From contig NZ_LIPV01000011.1 in the NCBI RefSeq assembly GCF_001418255.1, forward strand, positions 1 to 64,000: 64,000 nt of DNA, read 5' to 3'. The position numbers and the translations under genes were made by a program. Positions within the stretch are counted from its first letter, which is position 1. The number at the start of each line of letters is the position of its first letter. This stretch comes from Thiomonas bhubaneswarensis (lineage in GTDB: Bacteria > Pseudomonadota > Gammaproteobacteria > Burkholderiales > Burkholderiaceae_C). Shown here piece by piece: positions 32,779-46,252 of this stretch. The notes beneath the pieces were generated by a model, which made no database searches, was not told the DNA's origin, and saw nothing but the letters and a program-made list of their open reading frames with translations.

Positions 32779-35301
32779 TTGCCGACCTTTGCCCTTGCCG
32801 TCCTGCTGGGCTGTGCGCTGCAGACCGCGCAGGCTGCGCTGTGGCCGCAGCCGGTTTATGTCGCGCAGACGGCAGCCGGTGCCGCAGCGACTCTGGCGCT
32901 GATCGGCTGGCGCGGCCGCCGTGGCGGTAGGCCTTGCCAGCGGCGCCTCGCGCGTCTGGGCGTGCAGGCCTTGCTCGCGCTCGGCGGGGCGATGCTGGCC
33001 TTCGGCATGGCGGGCTGGCGAGCGCATCCGCTGCTGGCCGACCGGCTCGACCCGGCACTGGAATCTCAAGTGGTGCAGGTGCGCGGCGTGGTGACCGACC
33101 TGCCCGTGCTCTACCCCGACGCGACGCGCTTCGTCCTCGACGTCACGCAGGCCCCGCCCGGGGTGCCGGACAGGCTATCGCTCAGCTGGTACGCAAAGCG
33201 GCCACGCAACGGGCCCGCTGAGGCGCCACCGCGCGTGCATCCAGGTCAGATCTGGCAATTCTCCGTGCGGCTCAAGCGCCCGCACGGCTATGCCAACCCG
33301 GGCGGCAACGATGCCGAACTGAGCTTGTTCCGCGACGGCATCGGCGCCACCGGCACGGTCAGCCGCATGGGCCCGCCGCCGCAACGGCTTGGCATGCGCC
33401 ACGACCCCGCCGACTGGGTCGCCCAACTGCGTGACCACCTGCGCCAGCGCATGATGGCCGCGTTGCAGGGGCCGCCCGGCCCCCTCCCAACCTCCCCCAC
33501 TGCCGGGGGAGGTGAGAACAGTGCTTCGCACACGCTACGGATGCCCCTCCCCGCAGCGGGCACCGTCATCGCCCTGGCGCTGGGCGACCAGGCCGCCATC
33601 ACCGCCAGCGACTGGGCCACTTACCGCATCACCGGGGTCGCGCACCTGATGAGCATCTCGGGCCTGCACATCACCCTGCTGGCCTGGCTGGCGATGCGGC
33701 TGATCAGCGCGGCCTGGCGGCAGACGGCCCGCCTGCGTCGCCCGTGGACGCTGGTGCTGCCCGCGCCCACCGTGGCGGCCTGGGGGGCGCTGGTCACGGC
33801 CACCGCTTATGCCGTGGTCGCGGGCTGGGGCGTGCCCGCGCAGCGCACCCTGCTGATGCTGGCGGTGGTGCTGATCCTGCGCCAGCGTGGGCTGCGCGCG
33901 GACTGGCGTGACGTGATGGCGCTGGCGCTCACCGCCGTGCTGCTGTGGGACCCGTGGGCGGTGCGGCAGGCCGGATTCTGGCTGTCCTTCGTCGCGGTGG
34001 GCATGCTGTTCGTCGCCGCCGACCGCGGGCGGCCCGAGGGCCTGGGTGCCGATGCGGCCCGGCCGCCGTGGTGGCGGCGGGTCTGGCTGCGGCTGCGCGA
34101 GGCCAGCCGCACGCAGTGGGTCGCCACCCTGGCGCTGGCACCGCTCACGCTGTTGTTCTTCCAGCAGATCGCGCTGCTCTCGCCTCTGGCCAATGCCCTG
34201 GCCATTCCCGTCGTCACCATGGGCGTGGCGCCGCTGGCGGTGGGCGGCCTGCTGTTGCCGTCGCCGCTGGACGGCTGGGTCTGGCGCCTCGCCGCGTGGA
34301 TTCAGCAAGGGTTGGATGTCGCGCTGCGGCATCTGGCCGACTGGCCGCTGGCGCAATGGCATGCCGCCGCGCCCGATGCCCTCACCCTGGGTCTGGCCGC
34401 GCTGGGCGTGCTGGCGTTGGCGCTGCCGTGGGGTTGGCGGCTGCGCGCGCCGGGGCTGTTGCTGCTGGTGCCGCTGGCCAGCAACCCCGGCACCGCGCCC
34501 GCACAGGGCGAGACGGAGCTGTGGTTCGCCGATGTCGGCCAGGGCATGGCGGTGGTGGTGCGCACCGCGCGCCACACCCTGCTGTTTGATACCGGGCCGC
34601 AGCAGGCGCCAGGGGTGGACGCCGGCGGGCGCGTGCTGCTGCCGCTGCTGCACAGCCTGGGCGTGCGGCGTCTGGACCGCGTGGTGGTGAGCCACGACGA
34701 CAGCGACCACGCCGGCGGCGCGGCCACCATCGCCCGCGCCCACCCCAAGGCCGAGCTGCTGACCTCGGCGCCACCACAGGCTGCTGCGCGCTACGGTCTG
34801 AGCAAGGTCCACGCCTGCGCCGCCGGGCAACGCTGGACCTGGGACGGCGTGGACTTTCGCATCATCAGCCCGCTGCCTGAGGAGCTGCCGCGCAACGACA
34901 ACGCCGCCTCCTGCGTGCTGCATGTGAGCGCGCGCGGCGCCTCGGCGCTGCTCACCGGCGACATCGACCAGCCGCAGGAACGCGCGCTGCACGCGGCTGA
35001 GGCGCTGCCCTATGCCGATGTGCTGTTGGTGCCGCACCACGGCAGCAAAACCTCGTCGAGCGACGCCCTGCTCGACGCCGTGATGCCCCGCGCCGCGGTG
35101 GTGCAGGCGGGCTACCGCAACGCCCACGGCCATCCGCATCCGCTGGTGGTCGAGCGCTACTCCGCGCGCGGCATCGCGCTGTGGCGCACCGATCTTCAGG
35201 GCGCGCTTCGCTGGCGCGACGAAGCGCCCGATACCTTTGTCGCCTGGCGGGCGCAACAGCCGCACTATTGGAGCGCGCAGCAAGAAGCATCCTCCGACTG
35301 A
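32779..35301 (+). CDS. comEC: DNA internalization protein ComEC/Rec2
   Basis: Inner-membrane channel for single-stranded DNA uptake in transformation. 840 residues from a TTG at 32779 preceded by GAAGGA at good spacing. N-terminal membrane helices and an OB-like domain (VVQVRGVVTDLPVLYPDATR) are followed by the competence domain (VIALALGDQAAI, HLMSISGLHITLLAWLAM, GWGVPAQRTLLMLAVVL, RQAGFWLSFVAVGMLF). The C-terminal metallo-beta-lactamase domain has DVGQGMAVVVRT, VVSHDDSDHAGG, LLTGDID and VPHHGSKTSSS. Residues about 230-260 (GPLPTSPTAGGGENSASH) interrupt the conserved region and coincide with a palindrome at 33491-33512. Confidence 0.93.
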   Translation: MPTFALAVLLGCALQTAQAALWPQPVYVAQTAAGAAATLALIGWRGRRGGRPCQRRLARLGVQALLALGGAMLAFGMAGWRAHPLLADRLDPALESQVVQVRGVVTDLPVLYPDATRFVLDVTQAPPGVPDRLSLSWYAKRPRNGPAEAPPRVHPGQIWQFSVRLKRPHGYANPGGNDAELSLFRDGIGATGTVSRMGPPPQRLGMRHDPADWVAQLRDHLRQRMMAALQGPPGPLPTSPTAGGGENSASHTLRMPLPAAGTVIALALGDQAAITASDWATYRITGVAHLMSISGLHITLLAWLAMRLISAAWRQTARLRRPWTLVLPAPTVAAWGALVTATAYAVVAGWGVPAQRTLLMLAVVLILRQRGLRADWRDVMALALTAVLLWDPWAVRQAGFWLSFVAVGMLFVAADRGRPEGLGADAARPPWWRRVWLRLREASRTQWVATLALAPLTLLFFQQIALLSPLANALAIPVVTMGVAPLAVGGLLLPSPLDGWVWRLAAWIQQGLDVALRHLADWPLAQWHAAAPDALTLGLAALGVLALALPWGWRLRAPGLLLLVPLASNPGTAPAQGETELWFADVGQGMAVVVRTARHTLLFDTGPQQAPGVDAGGRVLLPLLHSLGVRRLDRVVVSHDDSDHAGGAATIARAHPKAELLTSAPPQAAARYGLSKVHACAAGQRWTWDGVDFRIISPLPEELPRNDNAASCVLHVSARGASALLTGDIDQPQERALHAAEALPYADVLLVPHHGSKTSSSDALLDAVMPRAAVVQAGYRNAHGHPHPLVVERYSARGIALWRTDLQGALRWRDEAPDTFVAWRAQQPHYWSAQQEASSD
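33481..33560 (+). repeat. In-frame palindromic insertion within comEC
   Basis: CCTCCCCC (33491-33498) and GGGGGAGG (33505-33512) form a perfect 8-bp stem with loop ACTGCC. The surrounding sequence encodes a low-complexity segment (LPTSPTAGGGENSASHTLR) placed between MMAALQG and the conserved VIALALGDQAAI of ComEC. The reading frame stays open, so the element behaves as a tolerated in-frame insertion. Boundaries are approximate. Confidence 0.6.
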
Positions 35302-35429
35302 CCGCTAGTTGACGCCGATCAGCGCAGCGCCGCTGCGTCATCGCGCTGTCACATGGCCCCCACGGTTGGCCTGTATCTTGCTAACCTCGCTGCACAGGTC
35401 TGCCCAGACGGCCGCTTCGAGAGACGACG

Positions 35430-36851
35430 ATGCCCTTCTACGATGAAATGACCCCCGCGAGCGGCGGCGTGCGCCCGCACTATGCGCAGTACGCCCAGTG
35501 GCTGGCGCAGCAACCGCCCGACACCATACGCGCCAAGCGCGAGGAAGCCGAGCTGATCTTTCGCCGCGTCGGCATCACCTTCGCGGTGTACGGCGACGAG
35601 GCGGGCACCGAGCGGCTCATTCCCTTCGACCTGATACCGCGCATCATTCCCGCGGCCGAATGGAAGCATCTCGAAGCCGGGCTGAAGCAGCGCGTCACCG
35701 CGCTCAACCGCTTCATCCACGACGTCTATCACGATCAGGAGATCCTCAAGGCGGGCATCGTGCCGACCGAGCAGGTCTATGGCAACGCCCAGTTTCGCCC
35801 CGAGATGATGGGCATCGACCTGCCGCACCACGTCTACGCGCAGATCGCCGGCATCGACATCGTGCGCGCCGAAAACGCCCAGGGCGAGGGCGAATACTTC
35901 GTGCTCGAAGACAACCTGCGCGTGCCCTCGGGCGTGAGCTACATGCTGGAAAACCGGCGCATGATGATGCGCCTGTTCCCCGAGCTGTTCGCCCGCCACA
36001 GCATCGCCCCGGTGGCGCATTACCCCGATCTGCTGCTGGAAAAGCTGCGCGCCGTGGCGCCGTCCAGCGTGAGCGAACCCACCGTGGTCGTGCTCACGCC
36101 GGGGATGTACAACTCGGCGTATTTCGAACACGCCTTCCTCGCCCAGCAAATGGGCGTGGAGCTGGTCGAGGGGCAGGATCTGTTCGTCAAGGACGACTTC
36201 GTCTACATGCGCACCACCCAGGGCCCGCAGCGGGTGGACGTGATCTACCGCCGCGTCGACGACGACTTTCTCGATCCCAAGGTGTTCCGCGCCGACTCCT
36301 CGCTGGGCTGCGCCGGGCTGATGCGCGCCTACCGCGCGGGCAACGTCAATCTGGCCAACGCCATCGGCACCGGCGTGGCCGACGACAAGTCGATCTATCC
36401 CTATGTGCCGCGCATGATCGAGTTCTACCTGGGTGAAGCGCCGCTACTGCACAACGTGCCCACCCGCATGTGCCGCGAGCCCGACAGCCTGAGCTATGTG
36501 CTGGAGCACCTGTCCGAGCTGGTGGTCAAGGAGGTGCACGGCGCCGGGGGCTACGGCATGCTGGTCGGCCCGGCTTCCACCCAGGCCGAGATCGCCGCGT
36601 TCGCCGAGAAAATCAAGGCCAACCCCCATCACTACATCGCCCAGCCCACGCTGGCCCTGTCCACCTGCCCCACCTATGTCGAGTCGGGCATTGCGCCGCG
36701 TCACCTCGATCTGCGGCCCTTCGTGCTGTCGGGCAAGACCGTGTCCATCGTGCCCGGTGGCCTCACACGGGTGGCGCTGACCGAGGGCTCGCTGGTGGTC
36801 AACTCCTCGCAAGGCGGCGGCACTAAAGACACCTGGGTGCTGGAAAAGTAG
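35430..36851 (+). CDS. Circularly permuted ATP-grasp type 2 protein
   Basis: 473 residues of the circularly permuted ATP-grasp family (COG2308/DUF404-DUF407 type), predicted to form amide or peptide bonds using ATP. Visible blocks: RHIHDVY-like LNRFIHDVYHDQEILKAGIV, FVLEDNLRVPSGVSYMLENR with the acidic-Asn metal site, VVLTPGMYNSAYFEHAFLAQ, VVKEVHGAGGYGMLVGP with the nucleotide-binding Lys and glycine loop, and TVSIVPGGLTRVALTEGSL. All core motifs look intact. First gene of a five-gene run with alpha-E and transglutaminase-like proteins; 37 bases separate it from the next gene. No substrate is known. Confidence 0.9.
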   Translation: MPFYDEMTPASGGVRPHYAQYAQWLAQQPPDTIRAKREEAELIFRRVGITFAVYGDEAGTERLIPFDLIPRIIPAAEWKHLEAGLKQRVTALNRFIHDVYHDQEILKAGIVPTEQVYGNAQFRPEMMGIDLPHHVYAQIAGIDIVRAENAQGEGEYFVLEDNLRVPSGVSYMLENRRMMMRLFPELFARHSIAPVAHYPDLLLEKLRAVAPSSVSEPTVVVLTPGMYNSAYFEHAFLAQQMGVELVEGQDLFVKDDFVYMRTTQGPQRVDVIYRRVDDDFLDPKVFRADSSLGCAGLMRAYRAGNVNLANAIGTGVADDKSIYPYVPRMIEFYLGEAPLLHNVPTRMCREPDSLSYVLEHLSELVVKEVHGAGGYGMLVGPASTQAEIAAFAEKIKANPHHYIAQPTLALSTCPTYVESGIAPRHLDLRPFVLSGKTVSIVPGGLTRVALTEGSLVVNSSQGGGTKDTWVLEK

Positions 36852-36888
36852 ACCCCCGCCCTTCGCATCCAACCGGCAAGGAACTCCC

Positions 36889-37845
36889 ATGCTCAGCCGC
36901 ACCGCCGATCACCTGTTCTGGATGGCCCGCTACACCGAACGCGCCGAAAACACCGCCCGCATGCTCGACGTGCATGTGCAATCGGCCCTGCTGCCGCAGG
37001 GCGCCGAGGCCATGCAGTTGGGCTGGCGCGGGCTGCTGGGCATCTCCGAGCTGACCTCGGCCTATACCGAGCGCTTTGGCGCCATCGACGCCGACAAGGT
37101 GCTCGACTTCATGGTGTGCGACACCGGCAACCCCTCGTCGATCCAGAGCTGCCTGCGCGCGGCGCGCGAGAACGCCCGCGCGGTGCGCGGCGCCATCACC
37201 ACCGAGGTGTGGGAAACGGTCAACCAGACCTGGCTCGAATCGCAGCGCCTGCTGACCAAGGGATTGTGCGGACAGGATCCGGCCCAGTTTTTCGAGTGGG
37301 TGAAATACCGCTCGCACCTCTCGCGCGGGGTGACCTCGGGCACCATGCTGCAGGACGAGGCCTACCACTTCCTGCGTATCGGCACCTTTCTGGAACGAGC
37401 CGACAACACCGCCCGCCTGCTCGACGTGAAATTCCACGCCCTGCAGTCCGACTTCTACGGATCGACGAATGGGAATGGCCGCCTGCAGGAGCTCGACTTC
37501 TACCACTGGTCGGGCGTGCTGCGTTCGGTTTCGGGGTTCGAGGTTTACCGCAAGGTGTACCGCGACGTCATCACCCCCGAGCGCGTGGCCGGGCTGCTCA
37601 TCCTGCGGCCCGACATGCCGCGCTCGCTGGCGGCCTGCATGGCCGCGGTGAACCACCACCTACAGGCCGTGGCCAACCCGCAGTCGCGCGAGACATTGCG
37701 CCGCGCGGGTCTGCTCAACGCCCAGCTACAGTTCGGTCGGCTCGACGACATCATGGCCACCGGGCTGCACGCCTATCTCACTCACTTCCTGGAGCGCATC
37801 AACGATCTGGGCGTGGGCATCAGCCAGGATTTCCTCGCCGCCTGA
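36889..37845 (+). CDS. Alpha-E domain protein (DUF403)
   Basis: 318 residues, all-helical alpha-E domain: MLSRTADHLFWMARYTERAE at the start, GNPSSIQSCLRAARENARAV, WETVNQTWLESQRLL, FLRIGTFLERADNTARLLDV and LDFYHWSGVLRSVSGFEVY. Alpha-E proteins nearly always occur next to, or fused to, circularly permuted ATP-grasp proteins and are presumed partners or substrate carriers; no biochemical function is proven. AAGGAA precedes the ATG. It lies 37 bases after the ATP-grasp gene and 42 bases before the transglutaminase-like gene, so cotranscription is likely. Confidence 0.9.
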   Translation: MLSRTADHLFWMARYTERAENTARMLDVHVQSALLPQGAEAMQLGWRGLLGISELTSAYTERFGAIDADKVLDFMVCDTGNPSSIQSCLRAARENARAVRGAITTEVWETVNQTWLESQRLLTKGLCGQDPAQFFEWVKYRSHLSRGVTSGTMLQDEAYHFLRIGTFLERADNTARLLDVKFHALQSDFYGSTNGNGRLQELDFYHWSGVLRSVSGFEVYRKVYRDVITPERVAGLLILRPDMPRSLAACMAAVNHHLQAVANPQSRETLRRAGLLNAQLQFGRLDDIMATGLHAYLTHFLERINDLGVGISQDFLAA

Positions 37846-37887
37846 AGCCGCCAGTCATCCTTCAAACTCTCTTTCGCAGGTGCCCGG

Positions 37888-40800
37888 ATGTCCATCCACG
37901 TCGCGCTCACGCACACCACCACCTACCGCTTCGATCGCCCGGTAGGACTTTCCCCGCACGTCGTGCGCCTGCGCCCGGCGCCGCATTGCCGCACGCCCAT
38001 CCTGTCGTACAGCCAGCGCGTCGAGCCAGCCCAGCATTTCATCAACTGGCAGCAAGACCCTTTCTCCAACTACCTCGCGCGCCTGACCTTTCCCAACAAG
38101 ACCACCCTGCTGCAGATCACCGTCGATCTCGTGGCCGAGATGGCGGTCTACAACCCCTTCGACTTCTTCCTCGAACCCGAGGCCGAGCAATTCCCCTTCA
38201 CCTATGCGCCCGATCTGAAGGCCGAGCTCGCCCCCTATCTGGCCGCCGACGCGCGCACCCCGCGCCTCGATGCCCTGCTCAAGAGCCTCGACCTCACCCC
38301 GCGCCGCACCATCGACTTCCTGGTGGACGTCAACCAGCGGCTGCAGCGCGACATCGGCTACACCATCCGCTTGGAGCCGGGGGTGCAGACCCCCGAACAG
38401 ACGCTGGAACTGGCCTGCGGCTCCTGCCGTGACACCGGCTGGCTCATGGTCCAGGTATTGCGCCACCTCGGGCTGGCCGCGCGCTTCGTCTCCGGCTACC
38501 TGATCCAGCTCACACCCGACGTCAAGGCGCTCGACGGCCCCAGCGGCGCCGAGGCCGACTTCACCGATCTGCATGCGTGGTGCGAGGTCTATCTACCGGG
38601 GGCGGGCTGGATCGGCCTCGACCCCACGTCGGGGCTGCTCGCTGGCGAAGGCCACATTCCGCTGGCCTGCACCCCACAGCCCTCGGGCGCGGCGCCGGTC
38701 GAGGGCCTGGTGGACGAGTGCGAGGTGGAATTCAGCCACCACATGGCCGTCACCCGCATCTATGAATCGCCGCGCGTCACCAAGCCCTATACCGATGACC
38801 AGTGGCAGGCCGTGCTCACCCTGGGCGAAGTGGTCGACCAGCACCTGAAGACCGGCGACGTGCGCCTCACCCAGGGCGGCGAGCCCACCTTCGTCGCCAC
38901 CACCGACCGCGACGCGCCGGAATGGAACACCGACGCGCTCGGGCCCACCAAGCGCGGCTACGCCGGCGAGCTCATCGGCAGGCTCATCGCCCGCTACGGC
39001 CCTGGCGGTTTTCTGCACTTCGGCCAGGGCAAGTGGTACCCCGGCGAGCAACTGCCGCGCTGGGCGCTGTCGGCCATCTGGCGTCGCGACGGCCAGCCCT
39101 GCTGGCACAACCCCGCGCTGTTCGCCGACGAACGGCTGGGCGGCACCGCCACCGCCCTCGACGCCCAGACCTTCATGCTGGCCCTGGTCGATACGCTGGG
39201 GGTCGATCCGGCCCACGTGCAGACCGGCTTCGAGGACACGTGGTACTACCTGTGGCGCGAGCGCCGCCTGCCGGTCAACGTCGACCCGTTCGACTCGCGG
39301 GTGGACGACGAGCTCGAACGCGCCCGCCTGCGCAAGGTGTTCAGCCAGGGCCTGAAGGCGCCCACCGGCTATGCCCTGCCGATCCGCCGCGAGCCCGGTT
39401 CACCCCAGAAGAATGGACAGCCCCCAGGTCTGGGCGACGCCCAGACCGCTCCCCAAGGGGGTCAAGGAAACTTGGGACGGCCCGGCGTTTCCTTGAGCGG
39501 CCCGCGCTGGATCTCCGGCCCGTGGTTCTTCCGCGACGAGCGCATGTACCTGATTCCCGGCGACTCGGCCATGGGCTGGCGCCTGCCGCTGGACTCGCTG
39601 CCCTGGGCTTCCGACGGCGATCGCGCCTCCGACTGGCCGCAAGACCCCTTCGCCCCGCGCGGCAACCTGCCCGACGCCGCCGCACTGCGGCTGCAGTACG
39701 GCCCGATGCACCGCATCGGGGGCGGTTACGCCGAAGGTGGCACCGTCGGGGTGCAGAACCAGGGTGTCGCCGCACCGCTTCGGGGCGAGGTGGCGGGTCG
39801 CGGTGGCGCGGCATGGTCCAGTGGCGATGGCCAGCGCCTGCGGCCAGGCGACAGCCGCTACCCCGATCGTTTCGAGTCGGCGAGCTGGATTCTGCGCACC
39901 GCGCTGTGCGTGGAGGCTCGCGGCGGTGTGCTCTATGTGTTCATGCCGCCGCTGGCCAGCGCCGACGACTACCTCGACCTGCTCGCCGCCATCGAGACCA
40001 CCGCCGAGCGGCTGCGGGTCAAGCTGGTGCTCGAAGGCTACCCGCCGCCGCGCGACCCGCGGCTGAACCAGCTTCAGGTCACGCCCGACCCCGGCGTCAT
40101 CGAGGTCAACATCCACCCGGCGCACAACTGGGCCGAACTGGTCGATCACACCGAATTTCTCTACCAGGCGGCGTTCCAGACCCGGCTGGGCGCCGAAAAG
40201 TTCATGCTCGACGGCCGCCACACCGGCACCGGCGGTGGCAACCATGTGGTGCTCGGCGGCGCCACCCCGGCGGACAGCCCCTTCCTGCGCCGTCCCGACC
40301 TGTTGGCCAGCCTGATCGCCTACTGGCACAACCACCCCAGCCTGAGCTATCTGTTCTCCGGCCTGTTCATCGGCCCCACCAGCCAGGCGCCGCGGGTGGA
40401 CGAGGCGCGCGACGATCAGGTCTATGAACTCGAGATCGCCCTGAACGAGCTGCGCGCCAACCGTGCGCGTTACGGAGTTGACGCACCCGCATGGTTCGTG
40501 GATCGCACCCTGCGCAACATCCTCATCGACGTCACCGGCAACACCCATCGCAGCGAGTTCTGCATCGACAAGCTCTACAGCCCCGACGGCGCCACCGGGC
40601 GGCTGGGCCTGCTGGAGCTGCGCGCCTTCGAAATGCCACCGCATGCGCGCATGAGCGTGGTGCAGCAACTGCTGTTGCGCGCGCTCATCGCCCGCTTCTG
40701 GCACACCCCCTACACCGCGCGGCTGCAACGCTGGGGCACTGCCCTGCACGACCGCTTTCTGCTGCCAACCTTCATTGCGCTGGACTTCGAGGACGTGCTC

Positions 40801-41409
40801 ACCGAGGTGCGCGAAGCCGGTTACGACTTCGATCCGCAATGGTTCGCGCCGCACCACACCTTCCGCTTCCCACTGCTGGGCGACTACGCGGTGCGCGGCA
40901 TGAAGCTGGAGCTGCGCATGGCGCTGGAGCCCTGGCACGTCATGGGCGAGGAAGGCGCGGTGGGCGGCACGGTGCGCTATGTCGATTCCTCGCTGGAGAG
41001 GGTGGAGGTGAAGATCAACGGCCTGACCGACAGCCGCCATGTGCTCACCGTCAACGGCCAGGCGCTGCCGCTGCAGCCCACCGGGCGCAGCGGCGAATTC
41101 GTCTGCGGCGTGCGCTATCGCGCCTGGAGGCCGCCTTCGGCGCTGCACCCGGGCATCGGCGTGCACGCGCCGCTGACCTTCGATCTGGTGGACACCTGGA
41201 TGCAGCGCTCGCTCGGCGGCTGCCGGTACCACGTCGAGCATCCGGGCGGCAGCAACCCCTCCACCTTCCCGATCAACGCCTACGAGGCCGAGAGCCGCAG
41301 GCTGGCGCGCTTTTTCCGCATGGGCCACACACCAGGGCGCATGCAGGTCGCCCCGGCGCATCCGAGCCTGGAATTCCCGTTCACGCTCGATCTGCGCTCG
41401 CCCAGCTGA
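37888..41409 (+). CDS. Transglutaminase-like protein with DUF2126 domain
   Basis: 1173 residues. An N-terminal beta domain (HTTTYRFDRPVGLSPHVVRL) precedes a transglutaminase-like core with the full triad: Cys180 in CGSCRDTGWL, His229 in DLHAWCEV and Asp245 in GLDPTSG. The rest (about 290-1170) is the DUF2126 domain (GEPTFVATTDRDAPEWN, RLIARYGPGGFLHFGQGKWYP, LIPGDSAMGWRLPLDSLPW, RHTGTGGGNHVVLGGATP). At about 505-540 a Gly/Gln/Pro-rich insert (QKNGQPPGLGDAQTAPQGGQ) interrupts the family and corresponds to two palindromes in the DNA. It is probably a peptide or isopeptide hydrolase or transferase within the ATP-grasp cluster. Confidence 0.9.
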   Translation: MSIHVALTHTTTYRFDRPVGLSPHVVRLRPAPHCRTPILSYSQRVEPAQHFINWQQDPFSNYLARLTFPNKTTLLQITVDLVAEMAVYNPFDFFLEPEAEQFPFTYAPDLKAELAPYLAADARTPRLDALLKSLDLTPRRTIDFLVDVNQRLQRDIGYTIRLEPGVQTPEQTLELACGSCRDTGWLMVQVLRHLGLAARFVSGYLIQLTPDVKALDGPSGAEADFTDLHAWCEVYLPGAGWIGLDPTSGLLAGEGHIPLACTPQPSGAAPVEGLVDECEVEFSHHMAVTRIYESPRVTKPYTDDQWQAVLTLGEVVDQHLKTGDVRLTQGGEPTFVATTDRDAPEWNTDALGPTKRGYAGELIGRLIARYGPGGFLHFGQGKWYPGEQLPRWALSAIWRRDGQPCWHNPALFADERLGGTATALDAQTFMLALVDTLGVDPAHVQTGFEDTWYYLWRERRLPVNVDPFDSRVDDELERARLRKVFSQGLKAPTGYALPIRREPGSPQKNGQPPGLGDAQTAPQGGQGNLGRPGVSLSGPRWISGPWFFRDERMYLIPGDSAMGWRLPLDSLPWASDGDRASDWPQDPFAPRGNLPDAAALRLQYGPMHRIGGGYAEGGTVGVQNQGVAAPLRGEVAGRGGAAWSSGDGQRLRPGDSRYPDRFESASWILRTALCVEARGGVLYVFMPPLASADDYLDLLAAIETTAERLRVKLVLEGYPPPRDPRLNQLQVTPDPGVIEVNIHPAHNWAELVDHTEFLYQAAFQTRLGAEKFMLDGRHTGTGGGNHVVLGGATPADSPFLRRPDLLASLIAYWHNHPSLSYLFSGLFIGPTSQAPRVDEARDDQVYELEIALNELRANRARYGVDAPAWFVDRTLRNILIDVTGNTHRSEFCIDKLYSPDGATGRLGLLELRAFEMPPHARMSVVQQLLLRALIARFWHTPYTARLQRWGTALHDRFLLPTFIALDFEDVLTEVREAGYDFDPQWFAPHHTFRFPLLGDYAVRGMKLELRMALEPWHVMGEEGAVGGTVRYVDSSLERVEVKINGLTDSRHVLTVNGQALPLQPTGRSGEFVCGVRYRAWRPPSALHPGIGVHAPLTFDLVDTWMQRSLGGCRYHVEHPGGSNPSTFPINAYEAESRRLARFFRMGHTPGRMQVAPAHPSLEFPFTLDLRSPS
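39400..39500 (+). repeat. In-frame double-palindrome insertion in the DUF2126 gene
   Basis: Two stem-loops lie within one coding region: GGTCTGGGCG (39427-39436) with CGCCCAGACC (39438-39447), perfect 10-bp arms and a one-base loop; and TCAAGGAAAC (39462-39471) with GTTTCCTTGA (39487-39496), perfect 10-bp arms and a 15-base loop. The translated stretch is Gly/Gln/Pro-rich and fills a variable spot just before the conserved RWISGPWFFRDERMYLIPGD block. Boundaries are approximate. Confidence 0.7.
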
Positions 41410-41469
41410 TCCAACCCCGGCATGGGGGGCTGGGTTTTGACGCCCCGCCCCTTCATGCCACAATGCCTC

Positions 41470-44043
41470 ATGGCCAGCCTGTTCCAGAACCCTTCCCAGG
41501 ACCACGCCGATCCGGGCGATGAATGCGCGGCGCTCGCGCGCGACCTGGCCGCGTCCGTGCTTCCGGGCCATTGGGACGAGCTGCGCGGCCGCGTCTCCGA
41601 CGGCGCCACCGGCACGCCGCTGACGCCGATGTGGGAGCAGTTCTTCCGCCTGCTCGGCCCCGGCGGCTTCGACGCCCTGGGCGCGCGTCAGCAGCAACTG
41701 CTGCAGCAGATTCACGACGACGGCGTGACCTACAACGTCCACGCCGACGCGGCACAGGCGGTGCGAGCTTGGTCGGTCGATCTGTTCCCGCTGCTGATCG
41801 ACGCCGCCGCGTGGAAACAGATTTCCGCCGGGGCCGCGCAGCGCGCCGCCTTGCTCAACGCCATTCTGGCCGACATCTACACTGGCGCGCAGCGCACCCT
41901 CAAGGAAGGCCTGCTGCCCCCGGCGCTGGTGCAGGGCCACCCCGGCTATCTGCGCGCGGTGCACGGGCACGCGCCGCCGGGCAACGTCTGGCTGCACATC
42001 GCCGCCTTCGATCTGGCGCGCGGGCCCGACGGGGTGTGGCGCGTAGTCAACCAGCGGGTGCAAGCCCCGTCCGGGCTGGGCTATCTGCTGGAAAACCGCA
42101 TCCTCATCTCGCGCCTGTTCCCCGACGCCTTCACCCAGCTCAAGGTGCAGCGCCTGGCAGCGAGCTACCGACTGCTGATGGACACCCTGCTGCGCCTGTC
42201 GCCCGGCGGCAGCGGCAGCCGCGTGGTGCTGCTCACCCCCGGCCCCTACAGCGAAACCTATTTCGAGCAGGTGTATCTGGCGCGCTACCTGGGCATCACC
42301 CTGGCCGAGGGCAGCGACCTGACCGTGCGTGAAGACCGGCTCTACCTCAAGACCCTGCGCGGCCTGGAGCCGGTGCATGTGGTACTGCGGCGGCTCGACG
42401 ACAGTTTCTGCGACCCGCTGGAGTTGCGCCCCGACTCGATGCTGGGCGTGGCCGGGCTGCTGCAGGCGGTGCGCGCCGGCCATGTGCTCGTGGCCAATGC
42501 GCTGGGGGCCGGTTTTCTCGAATCGCCCGCGGTGCAGGGCTTTCTGCCCAAGCTGTGCGAAACCCTGCTGGGCGAGCCGCTCAAGCTGCCCTCGCTGCCC
42601 ACCTGGTGGTGCGGCGAGCCGGGTGTGTGCGACGCGCCGCTGGACGATCTGCGCTCATGGGTCATCAAGCCGGTGCACGCCGATTGCGGCTTCGAGCCGA
42701 CGGTGATGGCCAGCCTCGACTACGGCCAGCTTCCCGCCTGGCGCGAGCGCGTGCATGCCGACCCGGCGCGCGTCACGCTGCAGCAATACCAGCCGCTGCC
42801 GCAGGTGCCGGTATGGAGCGACGACCGCCTGGCCGCGCGCGCCGCCATGTTGCGCGTCTATGCCCTGTCCGACGGCCAGGGCGGCTGGCGGGTGTTGCCT
42901 GGCGGTCTGGTGCGCACCGCGCCGCGCGGCGGCAACACCGTGTCGATGCAGCGCGGCGGCAGCAGCCAGGACGCCTGGGTCATCACTGGCGACGCGGTCG
43001 ACGACTCCACCCTTCTGCCCCCGCCGATGCGGCCGCAGGATCTGGTGAACCATCACCGTGTGGTCACCAGCCGCGCGGCCGAAAACCTGTTCTGGCTGGG
43101 CCGCTACAGCGAACGCGCCGAATACAGCGCGCGGCTGGCGCGCATCACCCTGCGCGCGCTCTCGGGCGACGACGACCTCGGCCCCGCGGTGCGCGACATG
43201 GTCGACTCGTGGTGTCGCCAGGCCGGGCTGATCGAACCCGAGTCGCCCTCGCTGAGCGACAACCCGCACGGCTTCGAGCGCTGCATCGTGCGCGGCCTCA
43301 CCCCGGGGCAGCATGCCGGGGGCATCGTGCAGAACATCCAGGCGCTCGGCTTCGCCGCCACCCAGGTGCGCGAGCGCTTGGGCGGCGATCACCGGCAGTG
43401 GATCGCCTCGGCCACCGCGCTCGAACTGCTGCCCGCCGCCGCCCGGCGCGACGAATTGCAGGCCGCACAGGCGCTGCGCGGCCTGGAGCAGCTCACCGAA
43501 ATCCTCAGCGCCATCACCGGCGCGCAGACCGACCGCATGACCCGCGACGATGGCTGGCGACTGCTGAGCATCGGCCGCCACATCGAGCGCCTGACCCTGC
43601 TGGGCGAAGCACTGAGCCTAGCCTTCCGCACCAACGCGGTCCACACCGACAGCGGCTTCAACCTGCTGCTGGCCTTGTTCGACAGCACCATCACCTACCG
43701 CGCGCTCTACCAGAAGCGGCTGGAAATTCCGCCGCTGCTCGACCTGCTAATGCTCGACCGCGAGAACCCCCGCGCCCTTGGCTGGGTGGCGCAGACCCTG
43801 CGGGCACGCATGGCCAAGCTGCCCGGCGAGGCTGCCGACAAGGAGGCGCTGCTCGCCCTCGCCCCCGACCCCGACGACTGGCATCTGCCCGAGCTCTGCA
43901 CCCACAACCAGGATAGTCACTACGCCTGGCTGGAGCTCACGCTGACGCAGAGCATCGAGGGCGCCTGGCGCCTGTCCGACGAGATCAGCCGCCGCTATTT
44001 CGCCCACGCCAACGCCCCCGACCGCACCCTGGGCGGGTACTGA
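41470..44043 (+). CDS. Fused circularly permuted ATP-grasp / alpha-E protein
   Basis: 857 residues. Residues about 50-500 are a circularly permuted ATP-grasp domain (WSVDLFPLLIDAAAWKQIS, LLNAILADIYTG, VQAPSGLGYLLENRILISRL, VLLTPGPYSETYFEQVYLAR, SSQDAWVITGD). From about 530 an alpha-E domain follows (SRAAENLFWLGRYSERAEYS, DNPHGFERCI, RHIERLTLLGEALSLAF). It thus repeats, in one chain, the two proteins encoded at 35430-37845. Compared with that copy, the nucleotide-site blocks are altered: VVNQRVQAPSG instead of LEDNLRVPSG and VIKPVHADCGFEP instead of VKEVHGAGGYG. Start ATG 41470 avoids an unlikely Trp/Pro-rich leader. Confidence 0.88.
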   Translation: MASLFQNPSQDHADPGDECAALARDLAASVLPGHWDELRGRVSDGATGTPLTPMWEQFFRLLGPGGFDALGARQQQLLQQIHDDGVTYNVHADAAQAVRAWSVDLFPLLIDAAAWKQISAGAAQRAALLNAILADIYTGAQRTLKEGLLPPALVQGHPGYLRAVHGHAPPGNVWLHIAAFDLARGPDGVWRVVNQRVQAPSGLGYLLENRILISRLFPDAFTQLKVQRLAASYRLLMDTLLRLSPGGSGSRVVLLTPGPYSETYFEQVYLARYLGITLAEGSDLTVREDRLYLKTLRGLEPVHVVLRRLDDSFCDPLELRPDSMLGVAGLLQAVRAGHVLVANALGAGFLESPAVQGFLPKLCETLLGEPLKLPSLPTWWCGEPGVCDAPLDDLRSWVIKPVHADCGFEPTVMASLDYGQLPAWRERVHADPARVTLQQYQPLPQVPVWSDDRLAARAAMLRVYALSDGQGGWRVLPGGLVRTAPRGGNTVSMQRGGSSQDAWVITGDAVDDSTLLPPPMRPQDLVNHHRVVTSRAAENLFWLGRYSERAEYSARLARITLRALSGDDDLGPAVRDMVDSWCRQAGLIEPESPSLSDNPHGFERCIVRGLTPGQHAGGIVQNIQALGFAATQVRERLGGDHRQWIASATALELLPAAARRDELQAAQALRGLEQLTEILSAITGAQTDRMTRDDGWRLLSIGRHIERLTLLGEALSLAFRTNAVHTDSGFNLLLALFDSTITYRALYQKRLEIPPLLDLLMLDRENPRALGWVAQTLRARMAKLPGEAADKEALLALAPDPDDWHLPELCTHNQDSHYAWLELTLTQSIEGAWRLSDEISRRYFAHANAPDRTLGGY

Positions 44044-44054
44044 AAGCCGAACGC

Positions 44055-44990
44055 ATGACGCAAGACGCCCCGACCCCGCCGTCTCTGGGTGAGGCCGACC
44101 CGGCCGCCGCCGTGCTCTACCGCGTGGTGCACGAAACCGCCTACACCTACGCCACCCCGGTCGAGCTGGCGCACCATCTGGCCCACCTCTGCCCGCTCGA
44201 CAATGGCGTGCAGCAGCGCGTCGACCATGCATGCGACATTCACCCCGAACCCGGCCACCGCCGCAGCGAGGTCGACGTGTTCGGCAACGCCCGTGAGTTC
44301 TTCGCCTACTACAGCCCGCACGACACCCTGACCGTGCGCGCCACCAGTCTGGTGCGGGTGCGCCCGCCCGATGCGCCCGACTGGGGCGTCAGCCCCGCCT
44401 GGGAGCAGGTGCGCGAACAACTGCTCTACCGCGCCGACAGGCCTTATGTGGCCGAGTCAGAGTTCACCTTCGGCACCCATTTCGCCCCGGTGTTCACTGC
44501 GGCCGCGGCCTATGCCGCGCCCAGCTTCGCACCGGGCCGGCCGCTGCTCGAAGGCGCGCGCGACCTGATGCAGCGCATCCACGCCGACTTCACCTACAAC
44601 CCCGAGAGCACCGAAGTCCAGACCCGCGCCCCGCAGGCACTCGAACTGCGCGCCGGGGTCTGCCAGGACTACGCCCACGTGATGATTTCCGCGCTGCGCA
44701 GCCTGGGACTGGCCGCGCGCTACGTCAGCGGCTATCTGCGCTCCCACCCCAGGCCCGGCGAGGAACAGCTCGTCGGCGCCGATGCCTCACACGCCTGGGT
44801 GTCGGTATGGTGCCCGGTGAACGGCTGGGTCGAGTTCGATCCCACCAACAACCGCCAGCCCGCCGCCGACTATGTACGCATCGCACTGGGCCGCGACTTC
44901 GCCGACGTCTCGCCGCTGCGCGGCGTCATCCGCGGCGGCGGCGAACACACCCTGAAGGTCGGTGTGCATGTCAGTCCGGTCGAGGACTGA
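44055..44990 (+). CDS. Transglutaminase-like cysteine protein
   Basis: 311 residues. An N-terminal beta domain (YRVVHETAYTYATPVELAHH, SEVDVFGNAREFF) precedes a transglutaminase-like core with the triad Cys203 in GVCQDYAHVM, His246 in ASHAWVSVW and Asp262 in EFDPTNN. The last block, DYVRIALGRDFADVSPLRGVIRGGGEHTLKVGV, is typical of the family. The protein has no signal peptide and should be cytoplasmic, acting as a peptidase, amidase or transpeptidase with the ATP-grasp proteins. It begins 11 bases after the fused ATP-grasp/alpha-E gene and closes the cluster. Confidence 0.9.
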   Translation: MTQDAPTPPSLGEADPAAAVLYRVVHETAYTYATPVELAHHLAHLCPLDNGVQQRVDHACDIHPEPGHRRSEVDVFGNAREFFAYYSPHDTLTVRATSLVRVRPPDAPDWGVSPAWEQVREQLLYRADRPYVAESEFTFGTHFAPVFTAAAAYAAPSFAPGRPLLEGARDLMQRIHADFTYNPESTEVQTRAPQALELRAGVCQDYAHVMISALRSLGLAARYVSGYLRSHPRPGEEQLVGADASHAWVSVWCPVNGWVEFDPTNNRQPAADYVRIALGRDFADVSPLRGVIRGGGEHTLKVGVHVSPVED

Positions 44991-45313
44991 GAAGCTGTGA
45001 ATGGCCCACGCAGACGCGAATAACTGCGTTATTGCGTAATTCTTTGCATCATCGGCCGCGCGGCCCGGGCAAGCCCTGACGCCCAGCCCGAAGGGTGGCC
45101 CGTGCCTCTGCCGGGCGGCGCCTTCGCACGCGGCTCGGGCCGACATGATCGGCAACACGGCAGCACTCATCCGGTTACATCGCTTCCATTTTTTAGCGGC
45201 AATCGCCGAATCGCCGCCGATGATGAAGACATCCAACCTGGCGTTGGACGATGGGCCGGTCCGTATTCACTCCGCGCCGCCCGTGCACTTCCCACCCCGA
45301 GGGCAGGCTCTCC
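44991..45313 (+). promoter_or_regulatory. 323-base gap before cyoA, probable promoter region
   Basis: No gene is seen here. At 45020-45032 lies ATAACTGCGTTAT, a palindrome with 5-bp arms, directly followed by TGCGTAATTC, so TGCGT-T/A-AT occurs twice in tandem. Another AT-rich patch (45177-45199) precedes the cyoA leader. These are plausible operator and promoter sites for the oxidase operon, but no consensus promoter is clear. Confidence 0.35.
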
Positions 45314-46252
45314 ATGCATCGACTCGCTGCGATTGAACGACCCGCGCGCCGCTGGCGCTGGATGATTCTGCTGGGCGCCCTGCTGCTTGCCGGCTGCAGC
45401 GGCATGGGCCATGGCAGCTTTCTGCATCCGCACGGGCCCATCGCCGCAGACGACCGCCATACGCTGCTCATCACGGTGCTGCTCATGCTGATCGTGGTGG
45501 TGCCGGTGTTCATCCTCACGCCGCTGTTCGCCTGGCGCTACCGGCGCGGCAACACGCGTGCGGTCTATCGTCCGCGCTGGGAGTTTTCGCTGCCGTTGGA
45601 AATTCTGGTGTGGGGCGTGCCGGTGCTGATCGTCATCGCGCTGGGAGTGATCGTCTGGCAGCAGTCACACCGGCTCGATCCTTACCGCCCGATCGCGTCG
45701 GCCTCGGCCCCACTGGACGTGCAGGTCATCGGCATGGACTGGAAGTGGCTGTTCATCTACCCGCAGGAGCACATCGCCACCGTCAACGAGCTGGTCATTC
45801 CCGCCAACCGGCCGGTGCACATGAGCCTGACGAGCGACACGGTGATGCAGTCGCTGCTGGTGCCCGAGCTGGCTGGGCAGATCTACGCCATGGCCGGCAT
45901 GCGCACGCAACTGAACATGCTGGCGAGCCACACCGGCACGTATCTGGGCGAGAACACACAGTACAACGGAGACGGTTTCCAGAAGCAGAAATTCCAGGTG
46001 CATGCGGTCAGCGCGGCGCAGTTCGCCCACTGGGTGGAGCAGGTGCGCTCGAACGGCCAGACGCTTGACGCCGCCCGCTATGCCCTGCTGGCCAAGCCCT
46101 CGGTGCTGCCCGCGCCCGAGCAGTTCGGCAACGTCACGCCGGGGCTGTTCTACCAGGTGATTGGCCACTTCTGCCCCATGTGCGCCGAGCAGTTGCAAAA
46201 GACCCGGGCCGACGCGCCCGCCACTCAAGACGCGAAGGCCAGCCATGACTGA
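45314..46252 (+). CDS. cyoA: Ubiquinol oxidase subunit II
   Basis: Subunit II of a bo3-type terminal quinol oxidase. 312 residues with a lipoprotein signal ending in LLAGC (Cys near residue 27), two membrane helices (LLITVLLMLIVVVPVFILTP and ILVWGVPVLIVIALGVIVW) and a periplasmic cupredoxin domain (VIGMDWKWLFIYPQEHIATV, IPANRPVHMSLTSDTVMQS, GMRTQLNMLASHTGTYLGEN). The copper-A ligands of cytochrome c oxidases are absent, as expected for a quinol oxidase. The tail carries an unusual CPMC (GHFCPMCAEQ). It overlaps cyoB by 8 bases. Confidence 0.93.
   Translation: MHRLAAIERPARRWRWMILLGALLLAGCSGMGHGSFLHPHGPIAADDRHTLLITVLLMLIVVVPVFILTPLFAWRYRRGNTRAVYRPRWEFSLPLEILVWGVPVLIVIALGVIVWQQSHRLDPYRPIASASAPLDVQVIGMDWKWLFIYPQEHIATVNELVIPANRPVHMSLTSDTVMQSLLVPELAGQIYAMAGMRTQLNMLASHTGTYLGENTQYNGDGFQKQKFQVHAVSAAQFAHWVEQVRSNGQTLDAARYALLAKPSVLPAPEQFGNVTPGLFYQVIGHFCPMCAEQLQKTRADAPATQDAKASHD

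Follow-up and report, generated by a model that had tools for sequence, protein, structure and literature searches.

A five-gene ATP-grasp, Alpha-E and transglutaminase-like cluster of Thiomonas bhubaneswarensis with one intact and one altered ATP-grasp and a probable nitrogen response

Gene content and order of the cluster

We analysed a stretch of 64,000 nucleotides from Thiomonas bhubaneswarensis (NCBI RefSeq assembly GCF_001418255.1, contig NZ_LIPV01000011.1, positions 1 to 64,000 of the forward strand; hereafter the window), in which a five-gene cluster encodes two circularly permuted ATP-grasp proteins together with Alpha-E and transglutaminase-like proteins. One ATP-grasp has an intact signature, the other appears to have lost its ATP chemistry, and the cluster is preceded by a putative sigma-54 promoter element that is conserved among relatives. 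Genes were called from open reading frames and their translations, and domains were assigned by Pfam profile search; both agree with the five frames and domains given in an initial annotation of the sequence. The features are as follows, with lengths in amino acids (aa).

35367..35382, + strand: -24/-12 sigma-54 promoter element TGGCCTGTATCTTGCT, 2 mismatches to TGGCACGNNNNTTGCW
35430..36851, + strand: A1, separate circularly permuted ATP-grasp, 473 aa; CP_ATPgrasp_2 (PF14403), E 6.5e-169, 562 bits
36889..37845, + strand: E1, Alpha-E protein, 318 aa; PF04168, E 1.6e-99; two ER motifs
37888..41409, + strand: TD, transglutaminase-like plus DUF2126 protein, 1173 aa; Bact_transglu_N (PF08379) E 8.4e-25, Transglut_core (PF01841) E 2.6e-15, DUF2126 (PF09899) E 0
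41470..44043, + strand: A2E2, fused ATP-grasp (A2) and Alpha-E, 857 aa; CP_ATPgrasp_2 (PF14403) E 3.6e-136, Alpha-E (PF04168) E 7.3e-54
44055..44990, + strand: T2, transglutaminase-like cysteine protein, 311 aa; PF01841 E 1.5e-23, PF08379 E 1e-20

All five genes share the + strand, and the final base of TGGCCTGTATCTTGCT lies 48 base pairs (bp) 5' of the A1 start ATG. The intergenic gaps are 37, 42, 12 or 60, and 11 bp, the third depending on whether A2E2 starts at ATG 41470 (857 aa, the choice of the initial annotation) or at ATG 41422 (873 aa); with no gap above 60 bp, there is little room between the genes for a precursor-peptide gene of the sort that graspetide (RiPP) clusters carry beside their ATP-grasp. 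The cluster is flanked by comEC upstream (32779-35301) and cyoA downstream (45251-46252). In the whole genome (3.2 Mb, 23 contigs, completeness estimate 100%), A1 and A2E2 are the only two CP_ATPgrasp_2 proteins, and the only two Bact_transglu_N matches, TD and T2, both fall within the window, with no third found.

General family searches added little to this picture. No NCBIfam family was assigned to any of the five proteins, Rfam at its gathering threshold found three tRNAs and no other RNA element in the window, and sigma-70 promoter and terminator signals in 35200-45400 showed no excess over shuffled sequence. The five proteins had no match among the PADLOC defence models at E <= 0.001, and a reading of the cluster as a defence system was dropped for that reason.

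Gene order was compared across 80 loci kept from relatives of TD, the closest being two metagenome-assembled genomes (88% and 86% identity), followed by the nearest named species, Thiomonas delicata (81%). TD was followed by A2 in all 69 loci with room, that is, with enough flanking DNA present, and A2E2 by T2 in all 67 such loci; A2 was fused or adjacent to Alpha-E in 68/68. The block TD-A2E2-T2 is therefore collinear wherever there is room. The position of the A1-E1 unit varies: A1 precedes E1 in 59 of 60 loci (all but L057, which sits at a contig edge), and the unit lies on the same strand upstream of TD in 21 loci, on the same strand downstream in 9 and on the opposite strand in 30, being outside the DNA examined in the other 20 of the 80. 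Several Burkholderia loci, and some others, have an extra small transglutaminase gene after E1.

A survey of the flanks for conserved small or partner genes was noisy and returned mostly frame artefacts. Apart from comEC, the sole recognisable gene was a ParC-like one, identified by eye in 18 loci at a distance of about 2.6 kb. A comEC homologue (39-45% identity to the window copy) lies between the two units in 14/14 inverted loci examined (for example, L020:7503-9875), and comEC also precedes A1 in the window, L004 and L005; it was matched in 51/80 loci and was not found in the DNA examined around L006, L008, L009 and L010. In the inverted loci, comEC remains beside A1-E1 although that unit is turned round relative to TD.

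The same associations recur when 143 genomes from the class are sampled: 41 have CP_ATPgrasp_2 and 26 have DUF2126. All 26 DUF2126 genomes also carry the circularly permuted ATP-grasp (about 7.5 expected if the two were independent), and 15 genomes have the ATP-grasp alone. Nine of the ten genomes in this sample with the fused protein have an adjoining Bact_transglu_N gene on the same strand, the exception being G013.

The ATP-grasp, Alpha-E and transglutaminase-like proteins

We aligned the ATP-grasps in 175 rows (2 from the window, with rows from the 80 loci and from 40 class-sample stretches), filed as 92 separate and 83 fused proteins. Five rows were moved by hand to the fused set: L078, which is cut by its contig, L093, which is cut by its stretch, and the divergent L099, L100 and L101. 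The basis for re-filing was the signature described below, together with open frames of more than 850 aa for L093, L099, L100 and L101; L078 was placed by its signature and its similarity to A2 alone.

A1 is a close homologue of 3n6x (E 1.8e-218), which is annotated as a putative glutathionylspermidine synthase and was the only significant match in a PDB profile search with A1. A 13-position signature (D143, E160, N162, R164, K320, K367, G373, G374, G376, D427, R429, K466 and D467), which spans an E-x-N-x-R motif, two lysines, a glycine-rich loop, an aspartate and a late lysine, is complete in 92/92 separate ATP-grasps, A1 among them. From this fold and intact site we infer that A1, helped by E1, is an active amide ligase.

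The fused proteins differ at the core of this signature. E160, N162, R164 and K320 are each kept in 0/83 rows, and D427 in no assessable row. The position of E160 is occupied by serine (36 rows), alanine (21), glycine (15), asparagine (8) or threonine (3), that of N162 by arginine (74) or histidine (9), and that of R164 by glutamine (81) or glutamate (2). The glycine-rich loop is unconserved among the fused rows; L083 alone has three glycines, but it has alanine for K367. We take E160-x-N162 to be metal (magnesium) ligands, an assumption carried over from glutathione synthetase and glutathionylspermidine synthetase rather than computed here. In a tree built from 78 of these 175 rows, one branch (support 100/100, one change) divides the 28 fused from the 50 separate ATP-grasps, and it is present in all 200 bootstrap trees.

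Judged by these residues, the fused set looks like an old pseudo-ligase clade, and A2E2 appears to be an old, retained paralogue of A1-E1 that has lost its ATP chemistry and is more likely to be a helper or binding partner than a parallel enzyme. The initial annotation had described two parallel sets of proteins, a description that does not hold, since conserved signature residues are missing from A2E2. It had also named ATP-grasps without ATP sites as an observation that would undo its reading, and at the level of sequence this is what set two presents, while the signature of A1 is intact. A2E2 could instead be an ATP-grasp that has diverged and rearranged its ATP site yet is still active. 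Its predicted model (mean predicted local distance difference test score (pLDDT) 84.0) keeps the fold, with 3n6x as the best match (Z 38.0) and glutathione synthetases (Z 22-24) and glutathionylspermidine synthetase (Z 20) as further matches, and the fused rows retain D143 in 83/83, R429 and D467 in all 82 assessable rows, K367 in 53/83 and an equivalent of K466 in eight distant proteins. The uniform loss of E160, N162, R164 and K320, the absence of D427 from every assessable row and the unconserved glycine-rich loop nevertheless make an active A2E2 quite improbable.

Both Alpha-E regions carry E-R pairs. In E1, E17, R18, E169 and R170 are at least 98% conserved (61 rows). An ER-A-x-N motif occurs twice in the Alpha-E protein encoded at 36889-37845, at E17-R18 and at E169-R170, and this repeat suggests an internal duplication. 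The second Alpha-E, in A2E2, has the equivalents of E17, R18 and R170 in all rows and that of E169 in 90%, and it mostly lacks the residues that are near-invariant in E1 at N95, R97, E109, D172 and R176. A sequence search found no relative of Alpha-E with a solved structure, and fold matches reached the helical-bundle level only.

The catalytic triads of both transglutaminase-like domains are conserved. C180, H229 and D245 of TD are kept in all 81 TD rows; C203 of T2 is present in all 71 rows, and H246 and D262 in 97%, the remainder being gaps. A PDB profile search with TD matched transglutaminase structures only.

The DUF2126 half of TD, which the initial annotation had not named as a ligase, is a further candidate. 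We folded TD residues 270-1173 together with 37 relatives, and the model, compared by VIA-align 2, had as top matches the glutamine synthetases 5dm3 (Z 8.6, root-mean-square deviation (r.m.s.d.) 3.8, 249 residues) and 11zs (Z 7.7, r.m.s.d. 4.2, 263 residues). Among the 50 matches listed, all eight with at least 200 aligned residues belong to the glutamine synthetase superfamily (Z 4.5-8.6), comprising glutamine synthetases or homologues, YbdK, plant glutamate-cysteine ligase and Dop (7oy3, Z 4.5). A glutamine-synthetase-like fold is suggested, not proven, and DUF2126 may be a second ligase joined to a cysteine hydrolase within TD.

Other variants of these families occur in the genomes sampled. 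In two genomes, a shorter, divergent DUF2126 gene (L154, G043:C5:73900-76700; L155, G048:C133:3900-6800; 713 aa open frame, about 31-33% identity to the standard protein) stands beside a standard one. The region G000:C1:347848-360708 contains two more glutamine-synthetase-family genes about 11 kb apart (L134 and L135), the first with an aminotransferase-like gene, identified by eye, directly downstream, an arrangement that presumably resembles gamma-glutamyl-polyamine pathways.

Sigma-54 promoter elements and probable nitrogen regulation

We counted sigma-54 sites with at most 2 mismatches and with GG/GC fixed, within 260 bp, using dinucleotide-preserving shuffles as controls. A site stands before A1 in 50/60 loci (2.6% in shuffles), and in 58/60 when three mismatches are allowed within 130 bp. 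The ten loci missed at the stricter setting are L044, L050, L054, L056, L060, L067, L071, L077, L078 and L081; nine of them have a site with 3 mismatches, eight of these at the usual place. TD has its own site in 47 of the 51 loci in which no cluster gene precedes it (misses L013, L033, L045 and L065; shuffles for A1 and leading TD 2.2-2.6%), and in 5/6 contig-edge rows, which were counted apart. Where TD lies behind E1 or behind the extra transglutaminase gene, a site occurs in 1/23 loci only (L067). The internal genes give similarly low counts: 1/74 before A2E2, 0/62 before E1 and 5/68 before T2 (T2 shuffles 2.65%). This distribution implies that the sigma-54 element tracks the start of the presumed transcription unit. 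When the window is aligned with four near relatives, 12 of the 18 invariant columns lie inside the 16-bp sigma-54 block.

The genome has rpoN, and an ntrC that scores above its curated cut-off (701.7 bits over two pieces) and shares a contig with glnA, which it follows at about 2 kb; several other NtrC-like regulators fall below the cut-off. Upstream of A1, the palindrome GCAC-N7-GTGC occurs within 1 mismatch in 32/60 regions against 9.7 in simple shuffles, a count that is weakened by the E1 control regions, which are also enriched at another palindrome spacing (31/62 against 9.6). Two Burkholderia loci, L011 and L012, have readable perfect copies ahead of A1.

Expression data have been published for relatives. 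In Burkholderia cenocepacia H111, the related genes I35_5080-83 are reported to drop 6.0 to 9.4 fold when ntrC is mutated and to depend on NtrC and sigma-54, under which they are co-regulated with urease, nitrate reductase and transporter genes. In Pseudomonas putida, PP_2686-2688 rise 11.0-14.7 fold in the wild type under nitrogen limitation and 16.6-37.3 fold in a relA/spoT strain (PMC7801951); elsewhere PP_2688 is reported to rise on nitrate, and its promoter by 3.7 fold on nitrogen depletion. The nitrogen response of the relatives' genes is thus well supported in these sources, with sigma-54 dependence supported by published data for Burkholderia only. The five-gene cluster of the window is probably switched on by nitrogen shortage.

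Relation to known systems and possible function

Operons of this general kind, in which an amidoligase accompanies the proteasome-like peptidase Anbu, are said to have been predicted by Iyer et al. in 2009. The cluster has the circularly permuted ATP-grasp, the Alpha-E protein and the transglutaminase-like protein of such operons, as do P. putida PP_2685-2688 and Yersinia bercovieri, and it lacks Anbu. The initial annotation had noted no Anbu next to the cluster, and this extends to the whole genome: a search for the proteasome family PF00227 at E up to 10 gave a single match, which we identify as HslV because HslU is, by eye, the next gene. Proteasome involvement through Anbu was rejected on this basis. 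At least 13 of the 26 DUF2126 genomes of the class sample have weak PF00227 matches no more than a few kb from their ATP-grasp or DUF2126 genes, and we take these matches to be Anbu. In eight of the 26, among them this genome, PF00227 was matched only once (the match was inspected in this genome only), so Anbu seems dispensable to the DUF2126 type. The cluster is an Anbu-less relative of the Anbu operon rather than an Anbu operon itself, and it differs further in adding TD, with its DUF2126 half, and the A2E2-T2 pair.

Several other systems share parts of this layout. Glutathionylspermidine synthetase/amidase, which pairs a ligase with a papain-fold amidase, has the ATP-grasp fold (2io7-2iob), as do eukaryotic-type glutathione synthetases (Z 20-24); by comparison, the ligase of the cluster is not fused to an amidase, Alpha-E is added, and A2E2 is without the E-x-N pair. 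Pupylation by PafA and Dop offers a possible likeness in its glutamine-synthetase-like ligase fold, to which the DUF2126 match to Dop belongs, and in its eraser. Dop is an eraser derived from a ligase paralogue, whereas the altered paralogue here is an ATP-grasp beside a cysteine hydrolase. Another published gene set, I35_5080-83 of B. cenocepacia H111, is described as DUF404/407, DUF403, transglutaminase-like and large transglutaminase-like genes; its separate small transglutaminase gene stands between Alpha-E and the large gene, whereas no third Bact_transglu_N match was found here, and the description consulted names neither the fused gene nor its partner. In the rlo operon of Pseudomonas aeruginosa, RloA is reported as a secreted protease, RloB as a membrane-bound, inactive transglutaminase and RloC as an ATP-grasp, and the defects of protease mutants are rescued by mutations in the transglutaminase-fold and ATP-grasp genes. 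The logic of ligase, transglutaminase fold and peptidase is similar to that of the cluster, but as described the rlo ATP-grasp is 24% identical to RimK, the transglutaminase is inactive and membrane-bound, and the protease is secreted.

We hypothesize, with a rough probability of 0.42, that the cluster, induced by nitrogen limitation, writes an amide (isopeptide-like) linkage onto a peptide or protein and also erases it. From the conserved element at 35367, sigma-54 RNA polymerase would transcribe the five genes; relatives and gene spacing suggest cotranscription, and relatives point to NtrC as the most likely activator. With help from Alpha-E, A1 would activate a carboxylate with ATP and join it to an amine, as its fold and intact site suggest, and the DUF2126 half of TD may act as a glutamine-synthetase-type second ligase tied to a cysteine hydrolase. 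A2E2, whose residue losses and pairing with T2 are observed, may still bind the acceptor or product and present it to T2, which would cut the linkage. Processing of the product would fall to Anbu in bacteria that have it, and to T2 and TD here. A make-and-trim system, as the initial annotation proposed, remains the best general reading, in keeping with the signature of A1 and with the Cys-His-Asp residues kept in both transglutaminase-like domains, and it needs amendment for set two, in which the ligase is altered. A more specific version casts A2E2 as an ex-ligase adaptor that recognises the modified product for the hydrolase T2, forming a dedicated, Anbu-less eraser module under nitrogen-stress control and an ATP-grasp counterpart of the relation between Dop and PafA; we regard this version as doubtful.

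A number of results weigh against the writing-and-erasing hypothesis. Across the window, sigma-54 matches numbered 34 against 44.8 expected, so that taken alone the window match does not exceed chance; the evidence for the element is its conservation. The window has one-mismatch palindromes but no convincing NtrC site. Confidence in the DUF2126 model is modest (pLDDT 63.8, predicted template modelling score 0.67), Foldseek returned no match to it at E <= 0.001, and its best Z of 8.6 barely exceeds the 7-8 typical of the best match for models without a clear one; ranks 3-5 are isoamylases aligned over 93-94 residues of the C-terminal part. Comparison of DUF2126 with glutamine synthetase by hhalign was non-significant (Prob 0.8 and 0.2 of 100, E 0.071 and 0.35), although the second of these alignments pairs, in order, GVIEVN with GQCEIG and TGGGNH with NGSGMH. 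In Y. bercovieri, the available reports describe an Anbu without peptidase activity and pull-downs that gave no specific or stable complexes of Anbu with its operon partners; the ATP-grasp of that operon is reported to release phosphate from ATP. In P. putida, continued induction of PP_2686-2688 in an rpoN mutant, detailed below, speaks against sigma-54 dependence in that species. The P. putida Anbu gene PP_2685 changes only 1.12 fold in the wild type under nitrogen limitation (PMC7801951, Table 2), so that three of the four operon genes are induced, and a PP_2685 promoter construct is described as nitrogen-agnostic. The writer and eraser assignment of A2E2-T2 is one that we infer, and the open-licence literature searched reports no substrate, product or phenotype for the cluster.

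Of the alternatives, the one that survives best is production, under nitrogen stress, of a small, diffusible metabolite that the hydrolases trim; it would be a peptide or a peptide-amine conjugate, either resembling glutathionylspermidine or bioactive in some other way. The fold relatives of A2 are named for the synthesis of glutathione, homoglutathione, glutathionylspermidine and trypanothione, and a review table, citing a 2019 thesis, lists as anti-nematode a metagenomic clone that carries genes for an ATP-grasp, alpha-E, a transglutaminase and a protease (PMC7764037). That claim is, however, a single table row citing a thesis, the cluster has no transporter, carrier or tailoring gene, and its broad conservation and fixed order are more like general stress physiology; we give this alternative perhaps one chance in several.

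It is somewhat less likely that the nitrogen response runs through a regulator other than sigma-54 and NtrC, with the -24/-12 elements serving another enhancer-binding protein or condition. The P. putida data favour this reading: PP_2686-2688 are still up 14.2-19.6 fold in an rpoN mutant, and the same source gives ntrB/ntrC as putative regulator only (PMC7801951). The window is also without a clear NtrC site, and the genome has several other NtrC-like regulators. Against this, the B. cenocepacia ntrC mutant is reported to lose expression, with overlap with the sigma-54 regulon, and the -24/-12 elements are conserved across Burkholderiales loci. Moreover, that rpoN mutant of P. putida still shows induction of urtA-D, for which ntrB/ntrC is likewise given as regulator (PMC7801951). 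In our reading, the P. putida pattern as a whole, with PP_2685 hardly induced in the wild type and with PP_2686-2688 and urtA-D both induced in the rpoN strain, misfits the usual nitrogen regulation (Ntr) model.

Nitrogen scavenging is improbable. In this reading, the hydrolases would liberate ammonia or amines bound in amides or isopeptides, and the ligases would keep or regenerate a carrier in the manner of gamma-glutamyl-amine pathways. It would fit the situation in B. cenocepacia, where urease, nitrate reductase and transporter genes share the NtrC and sigma-54 control, and a reported association of these domains with urea metabolism in metagenomes, but the cluster has no amine transporter, oxidase or aminotransferase, and two ATP-using ligases would be costly.

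The kind of operon, reportedly predicted in 2009, and its nitrogen control, which is published, are already known; for the pseudo-ligase and the promoter pattern we found no report in the open-licence literature, which omits most subscription journals. Operons of Alpha-E, ATP-grasp and transglutaminase genes are widespread, as the 41 of 143 class genomes with the circularly permuted ATP-grasp illustrate, and our analysis narrows the question of what they do by indicating nitrogen limitation as the inducing condition to try. It also suggests likely roles for the parts: A1-E1 and DUF2126 would be the ligases, T2 and TD would do the cutting, and A2E2 would probably serve in binding rather than as an enzyme. 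The Anbu-less five-gene version described here, apparently a single operon, is a compact test case.

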